Below, piece after piece: positions 5,576-25,923 of a stretch of DNA of 64,000 nucleotides; position 1 is the first letter of the stretch, and each line of letters starts with the position of its first letter. The stretch is from Bacteroidota bacterium (GTDB lineage Bacteria > Bacteroidota > Bacteroidia > JABDFU01): positions 1 through 64,000 of the forward strand of contig JABDFG010000007.1 in NCBI GenBank assembly GCA_013286655.1, read 5' to 3'. Below the pieces are notes generated by a model that was not told the DNA's origin, did no database searches, and saw only the letters and a program-made list of their open reading frames with translations. A program made the translations under genes and the position numbers.

Positions 5576-6511
5576 TTAGACAAATAACTTCTTGGTTAAA
5601 ACCTCCTCATAAACCGAACGGATTCCATCTTCCAGATTTATCTTATGTTTCCAGCCGAATGAATGAAGTTTGGTTACATCCATCAATTTACGGGGCGTCC
5701 CATCGGGCTGTGCAGGATTAAAGTTCAATTCTCCATTAAATCCTACCACTCTTTTTATCAGTAAAGCAAGATCCTTTATAGAAAGATCTTCCCCACAGCC
5801 AATATTTACCAAGCCTGATCCATTATAATTCTCCATCAAAAAAACACAGGCATCCGCCATGTCATTCACATGCAAAAACTCTCTTCGCGGATTCCCGGTT
5901 CCCCAAACTTCCACAAATGGCATACCTTCCACCTTGGCGGTATGTATTTTTCGTAGCAAGGCGGGAAGAACATGTGAATTATTCAAATCGTAATTATCAT
6001 TAGGCCCATATAAATTAGTCGGCATCGCTGACACAAAATTGCAACCATACTGACTTCGATAGGCATCGCACATTTTAATTCCGGCAATTTTTGCAATCGC
6101 ATAAGGCTCATTTGTCTGTTCCAAAGGACCGCTCAGCAAATATTCTTCTTTTAAGGGCTGGGGAGCCAGTTTAGGATAAATACAGGAAGATCCTAAAAAC
6201 ATCAGTTTCTTTACCTGATTCCGGTAAGACTGATGGATCACATTGGACTGGATCATGATGTTATCATAAATAAACTCTGCACGAAAAGTATTATTGGCAT
6301 AAATGCCACCGACTTTTGCAGCAGCCAAAAAAACAAGATCCGGTTTCTCAGCTTTGAAAAAGGTTTCTACTTGCGCCTGGTTACGAAGATCTAACTCCTT
6401 TGATCCACGTATTATAATATTTCTAAAACCAAGTATTTCCAATCTTCTGACAATAGCGGAACCCACCATTCCCCGATGTCCCGCTATGAATATTTTATCG
6501 TCTTTGTTCAA
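5576..6511 (-). CDS. fcl: GDP-L-fucose synthase
   Basis: SDR: 'IFIAGHRGMVGSAIVRRLE', 'FLGSSCIYPKLAPQPLKEEYLLSGPLEQTNEPYAIAKIAGIKMC'. Confidence 0.96.
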   Translation of the reverse strand: MNKDDKIFIAGHRGMVGSAIVRRLEILGFRNIIIRGSKELDLRNQAQVETFFKAEKPDLVFLAAAKVGGIYANNTFRAEFIYDNIMIQSNVIHQSYRNQVKKLMFLGSSCIYPKLAPQPLKEEYLLSGPLEQTNEPYAIAKIAGIKMCDAYRSQYGCNFVSAMPTNLYGPNDNYDLNNSHVLPALLRKIHTAKVEGMPFVEVWGTGNPRREFLHVNDMADACVFLMENYNGSGLVNIGCGEDLSIKDLALLIKRVVGFNGELNFNPAQPDGTPRKLMDVTKLHSFGWKHKINLEDGIRSVYEEVLTKKLFV

Positions 6512-6521
6512 TTTCAGGAAT

Positions 6522-7610
6522 CTATTCGTGAAAATTCATAATGTCATGGCCACCTTCTAAAAGGTATTTATCCTTTTCGAATAATTTCAGATCAGCCTGA
6601 ACCATTTCTTTGCAAAGTTCTTCCACACTGTATTTAGGTTTCCAGCCTAATTGATTAAAAGCTTTGGAAGCGTCTCCTACCAAAAGATCAACCTCTGCCG
6701 GCCGGAAATAACGGGGATCAATCTCAACCACCGTTTTTTTCGTCCTCGTGTCAATCCCCTTTTCCTCCACTCCCGCACCCTCCCATTTCAATTCGATCCC
6801 AACCTGCTTAAATGCCATCTCTACAAATTTTCGGACAGACACCTTTTTCCCGGTTGCCAGTACAAAGTCATCCGGATTATCCTGCTGCATCATTAACCAC
6901 ATACCTTCCACATAATCTTTCGCATGTCCCCAATCCCTTTCAGCATCGATATTTCCGAGAAAAAGTTTTTGTTGCAGACCCAAACTTATTTTGGCTGCGG
7001 CACGGGTAATTTTCCGGGTGACAAAAGTTTCACCCCGAACGGGACTTTCATGATTAAACAAGATACCGTTACAGGCGAAAATACCATACGATTCACGGTA
7101 GTTTTTGGTTATCCAGTAAGCATATAATTTGGCTACTCCATAGGGGCTTCGCGGATAAAACGGTGTTGTTTCGCGCTGAGGAATTTCCTGTACTAATCCA
7201 TATAATTCAGAAGTAGAGGCCTGGTAGAATTTTGTTTTCTTCTCCATACCAAGAATACGGATCGCTTCCAGCAAACGCAATGTACCGATTGCGTCCGCGT
7301 TCGCCGTATATTCAGGCGTTTCGAAAGAAACTTTTACATGTGATTGAGCAGCGAGGTTATAAATTTCATCCGGCTTTACCTCTTGTACAATACGGATTAA
7401 ATTAGTGGAATCTGTCAGATCACCATAATGTAAAAAAAAGTTAACCTTATTTTCATGAGTATCTTTATACAGGTGATCTATCCGGTCAGTATTAAAGAGC
7501 GAACTTCTTCTTTTTATTCCATGTACAATGTACCCCTTGTTCAACAGAAACTCACTTAAATAGGCTCCATCCTGACCGGTAACGCCTGTTAATAATGCTA
7601 CTTTTGCCAT
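6522..7610 (-). CDS. gmd: GDP-mannose 4,6-dehydratase
   Basis: '[44 protein letters not shown]'; 10 bp upstream of fcl. Confidence 0.97.
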
Positions 7611-23482: not shown

Positions 23483-23518
23483 TTGCAGGCAAAGTTAGGG
23501 CTTTTTAACTGTTGATTG

Positions 23519-23544
23519 GGCAACTATTTATTGGCCTTGAAGTC
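23519..23544 (+). promoter_or_regulatory. ECF-type promoter P1 (GGCAAC-17 nt-GTC) upstream of the 36-aa microprotein
   Basis: GGCAAC 23519-23524, GTC 23542-23544, within the 14-bp word ATTGGGCAACTATT that recurs at P2. Confidence 0.65.
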
Positions 23545-23584
23545 TTATAAATAGGTCTGAAAATTTCACAAAAACCGAAATAAT

Positions 23585-23695
23585 ATGGAAACCATTAAAA
23601 AGAGTATTCATGAAAAGCTATCAGATATAGCAATCATTATCGTATTTGCAGCCATCCTTGCAATGGGTTTGTTCGCCTATATCGGAAAATTTTAA
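23585..23695 (+). CDS. 36-aa single-pass membrane microprotein
   Basis: METIKKSIHEKLSDIAIIIVFAAILAMGLFAYIGKF*; ATG and TAA verified; basic amphipathic N-terminus followed by one hydrophobic helix. Below the ORF-track length cutoff. Confidence 0.6.
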   Translation: METIKKSIHEKLSDIAIIIVFAAILAMGLFAYIGKF

Positions 23696-23727
23696 CTACT
23701 TAAAAATCAAATATATACGTATAATTG

Positions 23728-23752
23728 GGCAACTATTCAGGATTTATTAGTC
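23728..23752 (+). promoter_or_regulatory. ECF-type promoter P2 (GGCAAC-16 nt-GTC) upstream of the ECF sigma factor
   Basis: GGCAAC 23728-23733, GTC 23750-23752; same word ATTGGGCAACTATT as P1. Confidence 0.65.
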
Positions 23753-23768
23753 AAATTAGTGAATAGCT

Positions 23769-24317
23769 ATGCTGGATGAATTACAATTAATAGAAGACTG
23801 CAAACAGGGAAGTAATTCTGCATTTGAAAAACTTTACGTAAAGTATGCGCCAAAAATGAAAGGAATTGCATACAGGTATGTCGGAGACAGAATGAAAGCA
23901 GAAGATATAGTCCACGACGCATTTATTAAGGTATATGAAAAAATAAGCTCCCTGAAAGATAATGCCGTTTTCGGGGGCTGGCTCAGAAGAATCGTTGTTA
24001 ACCAGGCACTTGACGCGCTTAAAAGCGAAAAAAAACTGAAAACAATATCAGAGGAATCCTTGCAATTTAATTCGGAGGAGCCCTCGGATGATAAAGGAAT
24101 TTACGAAAACATCAGTGCAAAACAACTGATGGATACCCTTGCATCATTACCAACTGGTTATAAAACAATATTTAATTTATATGTGGTGGATGGTTTTCAA
24201 CACAAAGAAATAGCTGAACAATTGGGAATTTCGGAAGGTACTTCAAAATCCCAACTTGCTAAAGCGAAAATTTATTTACGAAAATTATTAATTGAAAAAT
24301 GCGTATTAAATGATTGA
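23769..24317 (+). CDS. RNA polymerase sigma-70 factor, ECF subfamily
   Basis: Sigma2 'FEKLYVKYAPKMKGIAYRYVGDRMKAEDIVHDAFIKVYEKI' and sigma4 'LPTGYKTIFNLYVVDGFQHKEIAEQLGISEGTSKSQLAKAKIYLRKLL'. Confidence 0.95.
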   Translation: MLDELQLIEDCKQGSNSAFEKLYVKYAPKMKGIAYRYVGDRMKAEDIVHDAFIKVYEKISSLKDNAVFGGWLRRIVVNQALDALKSEKKLKTISEESLQFNSEEPSDDKGIYENISAKQLMDTLASLPTGYKTIFNLYVVDGFQHKEIAEQLGISEGTSKSQLAKAKIYLRKLLIEKCVLND

Positions 24318-25923
24318 AGAAGAAGACATACTGGAATCCCTCTACAAAACCCACCTGGAGGATATTGAAATGCCTGTTTCCGATAGCCTTTGGAATCGCA
24401 TCAGAAAGACTATTGCATTGAATAGGTTAAGAAAAATTTTAGGAGCATTGGCATTGATAGGTGCGGTAATCGGATTGAGTTTGTTTTTTATTCATCCAGC
24501 TGATCTAAACAGAAACAGCTATGCTAAAGAAAATAAAACAAGGATCAGTTGGAAAAACAAACCGAATGGCAATGATCAGGAAGAAATAAGGGATACATAT
24601 CAGAAAAAGACATTAACGGTTACTAAAAAAAATAAAACAGATAGCCTTTGGGACAATATAACTTATATAGACAAAAAGGACATAAAAAATGTTGATCAGA
24701 AAAAAAAAATTTTAAAAAATGTAAATACGGAAATTAATAACTCAAAAAAAATAACTGAAATAGGGCTACCTTCTTCTCAACAGTCTAAACTTCCCGGGAA
24801 AAGAAGTCTCCATCCTTTGATAGTGGACAAAGGGCAGAAAAAATCAAATCAGAAAACGGAAATAGATATAAAACAAAAAAAATCCCTTCCGACCACCCAA
24901 AATGAAAATTCCCAAACGGAAAAAAACACTAAAAATAAAGAAGATTCGATAGCCAATCCTTTAAACAAAGAGATACTGTCAAACGGGAACAGTCCAAAAT
25001 CAGCCGAAAATAATACACCCTTGACGGATAGCATTCCAAAACTAAAAGACGGTAATCCGATAACCGGTCAAAACCAGGTTTTGAAAACAGACAGTAATCC
25101 GACAACCAGTCAAAACCAGGTTTTGAAGACAGATACCTTTCCAACACAACCCTCAGATTCCGCCGGAATGAATAGTTCCAATAGCCAAAAGCCGGATAGT
25201 ACGTTATCGGGAAATACACCTCCTCCTAAAGACAATGAAAATAAACTTAAGCTATTTATCAATGCAGAAAGCGGAGGTTTGATCCCTATTGTTAGCAGTT
25301 CAATTGCCGGTATCACTATGACAAACAATCCTACCGGGAATAAAGTTCAAAACTTGAGTTATGATGAACGAGTGGAGCTGGGATTTATGATCCAAAATAA
25401 GCTCAGCCTTAATATTGGCCTGGGGCTTTCACATTTTCAGGGAAACTATTCGCAGACAGTTAGCAATGCCATACAATGGAAAGACACGACAGGTAAAAAT
25501 CATACGACAACAGTTGTTATTAACTCAAAAGCCGGCTTTGATTGTCAGTTCTTAAATATTCCCGTTTTTGCAGAATACCTTTTTGGTTTAAGCCCCAAAT
25601 GGAACCTGGCACCCTCAATTGGAGTCATTTTAAATTATTTACTGAACGCTCAAAGTACCGCCTCTGCCTCCAGTAGTCAAAGTATACCTGGAGTTTCTCT
25701 TACAAATGCCACCAGTACAAACAGAACCACCGATTTTAAACCTCTTACTGCATCTACATTGACAGGACTCCGCTTAGAGTATATTTTGAATGAAAAATGG
25801 AAAATTTACCTATGTCCCAGTTATTCCTTTTTTATCGGAGATCTGGTTAAAGAAGGCAATATTTTAAAAATAACGCCTTCTGCCTTCAATGCAAATCTTG
25901 GAATAACCTATTTTTTCAGGTAA
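24310..25923 (+). CDS. Putative dual-membrane anti-sigma-like protein: cytosolic N-terminus, inner TM, long K/N/T/S linker, C-terminal outer-membrane beta-barrel
   Basis: N-term 'DILESLYKTHLEDIEMPVSDSLWNRIRKTI'; TM 'ILGALALIGAVIGLSLFFI'; about 250-aa low-complexity linker; beta-barrel ending 'LGITYFFR' (terminal Phe-Arg). Start overlaps the sigma gene. Confidence 0.75.
   Translation: MIEEEDILESLYKTHLEDIEMPVSDSLWNRIRKTIALNRLRKILGALALIGAVIGLSLFFIHPADLNRNSYAKENKTRISWKNKPNGNDQEEIRDTYQKKTLTVTKKNKTDSLWDNITYIDKKDIKNVDQKKKILKNVNTEINNSKKITEIGLPSSQQSKLPGKRSLHPLIVDKGQKKSNQKTEIDIKQKKSLPTTQNENSQTEKNTKNKEDSIANPLNKEILSNGNSPKSAENNTPLTDSIPKLKDGNPITGQNQVLKTDSNPTTSQNQVLKTDTFPTQPSDSAGMNSSNSQKPDSTLSGNTPPPKDNENKLKLFINAESGGLIPIVSSSIAGITMTNNPTGNKVQNLSYDERVELGFMIQNKLSLNIGLGLSHFQGNYSQTVSNAIQWKDTTGKNHTTTVVINSKAGFDCQFLNIPVFAEYLFGLSPKWNLAPSIGVILNYLLNAQSTASASSSQSIPGVSLTNATSTNRTTDFKPLTASTLTGLRLEYILNEKWKIYLCPSYSFFIGDLVKEGNILKITPSAFNANLGITYFFR
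25051..25134 (+). repeat. Two tandem 42-bp units in the linker-coding region
   Basis: Encodes NPITGQNQVLKTDS / NPTTSQNQVLKTDT. Confidence 0.9.

Follow-up and report, generated by a model that had tools for sequence, protein, structure and literature searches.

The question raised by this locus is whether one extracytoplasmic function (ECF) sigma factor of an uncultured Bacteroidota bacterium reads two nearly identical sites, one in front of its own gene and the other in front of a neighboring 36-amino-acid open reading frame (ORF). Within the window, i.e., the whole 64-kb stretch of DNA analyzed, the 14-bp word ATTGGGCAACTATT occurs at 23515 to 23528 and 23724 to 23737, and these are its sole copies even when up to two mismatches are allowed. 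The first predicted ECF-type promoter (P1; 23515 to 23544, + strand) consists of GGCAAC (23519 to 23524), a 17-nt spacer, and GTC (23542 to 23544), which is separated by 40 nt from the start codon (ATG) of the 36-amino-acid ORF. The second (P2; 23724 to 23752, + strand) has GGCAAC (23728 to 23733) and GTC (23750 to 23752) separated by 16 nt, with the ATG of the sigma gene following after a further 16 nt. A preliminary description of this DNA had reported the repeated word, the two blocks with their spacers, and the placement of one promoter before each gene, and all three observations hold. The bare pattern GGCAAC-N14-19-GTC is nevertheless weak evidence alone: it occurs 5 times in the window versus 1.5 times expected, which is only mildly unusual. 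Homologous loci were therefore needed, and the strength of the case comes from them.

The product of the gene at 23769 to 24317 (+ strand; 182 amino acids) contains sigma-70 regions 2 and 4 only, in a protein of about 180 residues, as in ECF sigma factors. Sigma70_r2 (PF04542; residues 22 to 88; Pfam E value, 1.4e-16) and Sigma70_r4_2 (PF08281; residues 119 to 167; 1.5e-15) are both above the cutoff, as is TIGR02937, while the Bacteroides expansion family model TIGR02985 scores 117.7, under its cutoff of 126.4. In the genome contigs searched for close relatives of this sigma factor, the sole match had 27% identity. As no close orthologue of the sigma/microprotein locus was found, P1 and P2 themselves cannot be footprinted. 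In a congener (G004), the corresponding position, flanked by the glycosyltransferase and recG genes, is occupied by a small PIN-type toxin-antitoxin-like pair (54 and 123 amino acids; L167:2390-2912 on G004:C73), which was named from sequence without a profile search. The presence of a different pair at the same site marks the cassette at 23515 to 25923 as a variable insert.

A search for homologues of the window sigma factor covered 59 genomes of a single class, most of them representing separate families. It gave 70 loci with the window sigma factor included, and their upstream DNA was read strand corrected. Of the 70 loci, 41 had KGCAAC (i.e., [GT]GCAAC) in the 200 nt preceding the sigma gene, compared with 8.1 (standard deviation, 2.75) in shuffled sequences, and KGCAAC-N16-18-GTC was present in 16 of 70 (shuffles: mean, 0.19; maximum, 2). 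The spacer between KGCAAC and GTC showed a clear preference, with 5 loci at 16 nt, 10 at 17 nt, and 0 to 2 at every other length. When A was also permitted at the first position and the spacer was set at N15-18, the pattern was found at 24 loci in 24 genomes, with one occurrence on the reverse strand and one in mirrored sequence. The class-wide profile is DGCAACCyTT ... cGTCwT. At eight loci (L002, L008, L024, L026, L131, L133, L150, and P2), GTC lies 13 to 21 nt before the start codon, so the short leader of the window sigma gene is usual.

The ECF-type architecture that had been proposed for the two sites is thus borne out, as an AAC-type −35 block and a GTC −10 block, 16 to 17 nt apart and upstream of a sigma gene, recur as GCAAC and GTC before homologous sigma genes across the class. 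The motif word that had been put forward fared less uniformly: its GCAAC and GTC blocks are shared class-wide, but the ATTG preceding the −35 block and the exact CTATT following it are local. A weight matrix was built from 23 sites of other genomes, with the genome of the window excluded, and the whole 64 kb was scanned on both strands. The training sites were selected by pattern, which fixes GCAAC and GTC, and the weights at the other positions are independent of the window. P1 ranked first (21.5 bits), a score not reached in any of 20 random 64-kb sequences. P2 ranked second (16.0 bits); a random 64-kb sequence is expected to contain 0.65 sites of this quality, and the score of P2 on its own is only moderate.

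The gene downstream of the sigma gene (24310 to 25923, + strand; 537 amino acids) overlaps it by 8 nt and encodes a predicted anti-sigma factor of dual membrane-spanning (Dma)-like type. Its layout comprises a cytoplasmic part (about residues 1 to 40), a transmembrane segment (about 40 to 60, beginning at residue 40 by hydropathy), a long low-complexity linker, and a predicted outer-membrane barrel domain (357 to 500), where PF13568 matches at 28.5 bits, just above the cutoff of 27. The product has two features characteristic of Dma proteins: a short cytoplasmic domain leading into one transmembrane helix, and a position next to an ECF sigma gene. Residues 1 to 60 match a profile of other sigma-adjacent proteins (E value of 6e-7 among the 283 reading frames of the window). 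A single-sequence structure model has helices at 4 to 16 and 25 to 61, the latter in its better part, and is too poor (pLDDT below 50) to show the barrel. By architecture and gene order the protein resembles Dma, which is an assignment of likeness and not proof of membership.

Proteins adjoining the homologous sigma genes vary in their outer parts. A type IX secretion signal domain (CHU_C) follows the cytoplasmic domain and one transmembrane helix in 15 of 29, often together with PKD domains, and some of the remainder have outer-membrane barrel ends, in a set that includes L002, L008, L016, L017, L020, and L026. This arrangement suggests that sigma-adjacent proteins are anti-sigma factors with an outer part reading type IX secretion or the outer membrane. 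A literature search for sigma-adjacent CHU_C/type IX anti-sigma proteins found no paper on them.

We consider it probable that the sigma factor reads both P1 and P2, so that its own operon and the microprotein gene would be under common control, with the sigma factor held by the anti-sigma factor until an envelope signal arrives. In a resting cell, the overlapping Dma-like protein would bind the sigma factor through its N-terminal domain. A signal at the outer envelope, sensed through the periplasmic and outer-membrane part of that protein, would release the sigma factor, which would then transcribe the sigma/anti-sigma operon from P2 and the 36-amino-acid microprotein from P1, possibly with read-through into the sigma gene.

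The microprotein (METIKKSIHEKLSDIAIIIVFAAILAMGLFAYIGKF; 23585 to 23695, + strand) is a single-pass membrane protein with homologues in G001 (57%), at C10 in the same genome (55%), and in G005, giving four members in total, all in one genus. When 389 genomes of the class were searched with a profile, no convincing member turned up in any other genus. Codon differences are concentrated in the third position (e.g., 12, 6, and 22 at positions 1, 2, and 3), and by this pattern of substitution the microprotein is a true coding gene. The other three copies (L054 around 6116 to 6435, − strand; L053 around 6927 to 7225, + strand; and L096 around 5427, + strand) are each followed by a small basic ORF of the LSAKELRKVRHERRKE.. 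type and preceded by TTAACA-N4-TTAAC and a σ54-like −24/−12 pair. The σ54 reading of these loci is a consensus match only, strong in G005 (11/12) and weak in the other two (9/12 and 8/12), and in G001 the elements sit before an ORF upstream of the microprotein gene. The ECF motif is absent from all three loci; at the window copy it is present, and the TTAACA and σ54-like elements are missing. Judging from these upstream sequences, the regulator that drives the microprotein gene therefore appears to differ among the loci of the family.

Related ORFs with KLQ.AM.LWN..H.KSKILF are found at L099:1794-2099 and L053:6584-6904, one of them immediately upstream of the G001 microprotein gene. A σ54 reading of P1 was rejected, since the best match was 8/12 and lay away from P1 itself. 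The TAnnTTTG-type −7 element (consensus taken from PMC7366714) does not occur within 450 nt before the window microprotein gene.

A more specific role for the microprotein may be imagined, in which it serves the sigma/anti-sigma pair as a dedicated partner (e.g., through feedback on the transmembrane part of the anti-sigma factor), having been co-opted from a family that is confined to the genus and is elsewhere under σ54-type control. We regard this as doubtful; if true, one microprotein would answer to two different regulators.

The preliminary description had also expected the motif to find the rest of the regulon, and in this respect it was disappointed. The genome scanned is a draft, 72.6% complete. 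GGCAAC-N16/17-GTC occurred 18 times genome-wide, compared with 34 for the reversed control, and two refined patterns occurred 7 versus 5 and 3 versus 7 times, with no enrichment in any of the three scans. Four of the five refined-pattern matches outside the window lie inside ORFs. Only the match at G000:C4:20122-20147 (L101:3123-3148; GGCAAC-N17-GTCTT) falls between genes and ahead of an ORF, which encodes a secreted protein carrying a type IX sorting tail; this match is a possible third target of the sigma factor. By itself, the motif does not define the regulon in this incomplete genome.

Several other accounts of the two sites deserve consideration. P1 could be read by a different ECF sigma factor, as related ECFs have similar motifs; only P2 would then be the autoregulatory promoter, and the microprotein would fall outside the regulon. 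The motif occurs with numerous ECF subtypes throughout the class, and about ten further ECF-like sigma genes are present in the genome. However, P1 and P2 are identical over 14 bases, some of which lie beyond the class-wide consensus, and of the 12 sigma genes identified in the genome, only that at 23769 to 24317 has the full motif upstream. We consider separate control of P1 unlikely.

Much less probable still is that the two copies of the word form operator sites, bound by a DNA-binding protein such as a repressor or response regulator, and not a pair of promoters. Two identical 14-bp copies before neighboring genes would also suit an operator, but the word is not palindromic, and what other genomes keep is two short blocks with a preferred spacing of 16 to 17 nt before sigma genes, nearly all on the coding strand, as a sigma factor predicts. 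We give similarly little credence to a single P1 transcript spanning the microprotein, sigma, and anti-sigma genes, in which the short ORF would serve mainly as a leader tuning sigma production and P2 would be secondary. The genes from the microprotein through the anti-sigma-like ORF are all on one strand, no terminator-like site was found between them on that (+) strand, and P1 scores above P2. Against this, conservation of the short ORF at the protein level extends to loci where no sigma gene adjoins it, and it is hence more than a leader. Chance, i.e., two look-alike words in AT-rich intergenic DNA, is the least credible explanation, since, despite the 1.5 occurrences of the bare pattern expected per window, none of 2000 dinucleotide-shuffled pairs of the two intergenic stretches (102 and 73 nt) yielded a shared 14-bp word (longest shuffled match, 12), and P1 and P2 are ranks 1 and 2 by an independent matrix. 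Autoregulation of the sigma factor together with co-control of the microprotein is thus, as far as sequence comparison can indicate, the likely mechanism.

Promoters of autoregulated ECF sigma factors in general have an AAC-type −35 and a GTC-type −10 element upstream of the sigma factor's own gene. The locus described here is similar in having AAC and GTC blocks at 16 to 17 nt before its own sigma gene, and differs in that the −35 block is of the specific DGCAACC form common to this Bacteroidota sigma group. Few ECF promoters have been defined in Bacteroidota, and according to a 2020 paper (PMC7366714), none of the alternative ECFs of B. thetaiotaomicron had a known motif. DGCAACC-N16/17-cGTC before sigma/anti-sigma operons provides a concrete predicted promoter for a large envelope-sensing group, class-wide, although part of this signature may already be recorded in published ECF-group promoter predictions. 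This class-wide signature would also tie a tiny membrane protein to one envelope-sensing system.

Two systems of the same phylum invite comparison. SigP of Porphyromonas gingivalis has been described as an ECF sigma factor activating its own gene (PMC7712824), as predicted for the window sigma factor. Unlike the latter, SigP is under the control of PorXY and not of an overlapping transmembrane anti-sigma gene, and it has no microprotein. In the Dma-type systems of Bacteroidota, studied in B. thetaiotaomicron (PMC13088901), an ECF sigma gene likewise adjoins the gene for a protein spanning the cytoplasm, inner membrane, and an outer-membrane barrel domain. The likeness is one of architecture and gene order, and, unlike in those systems, the sigma gene described here is preceded by a microprotein gene that has a promoter copy to itself.
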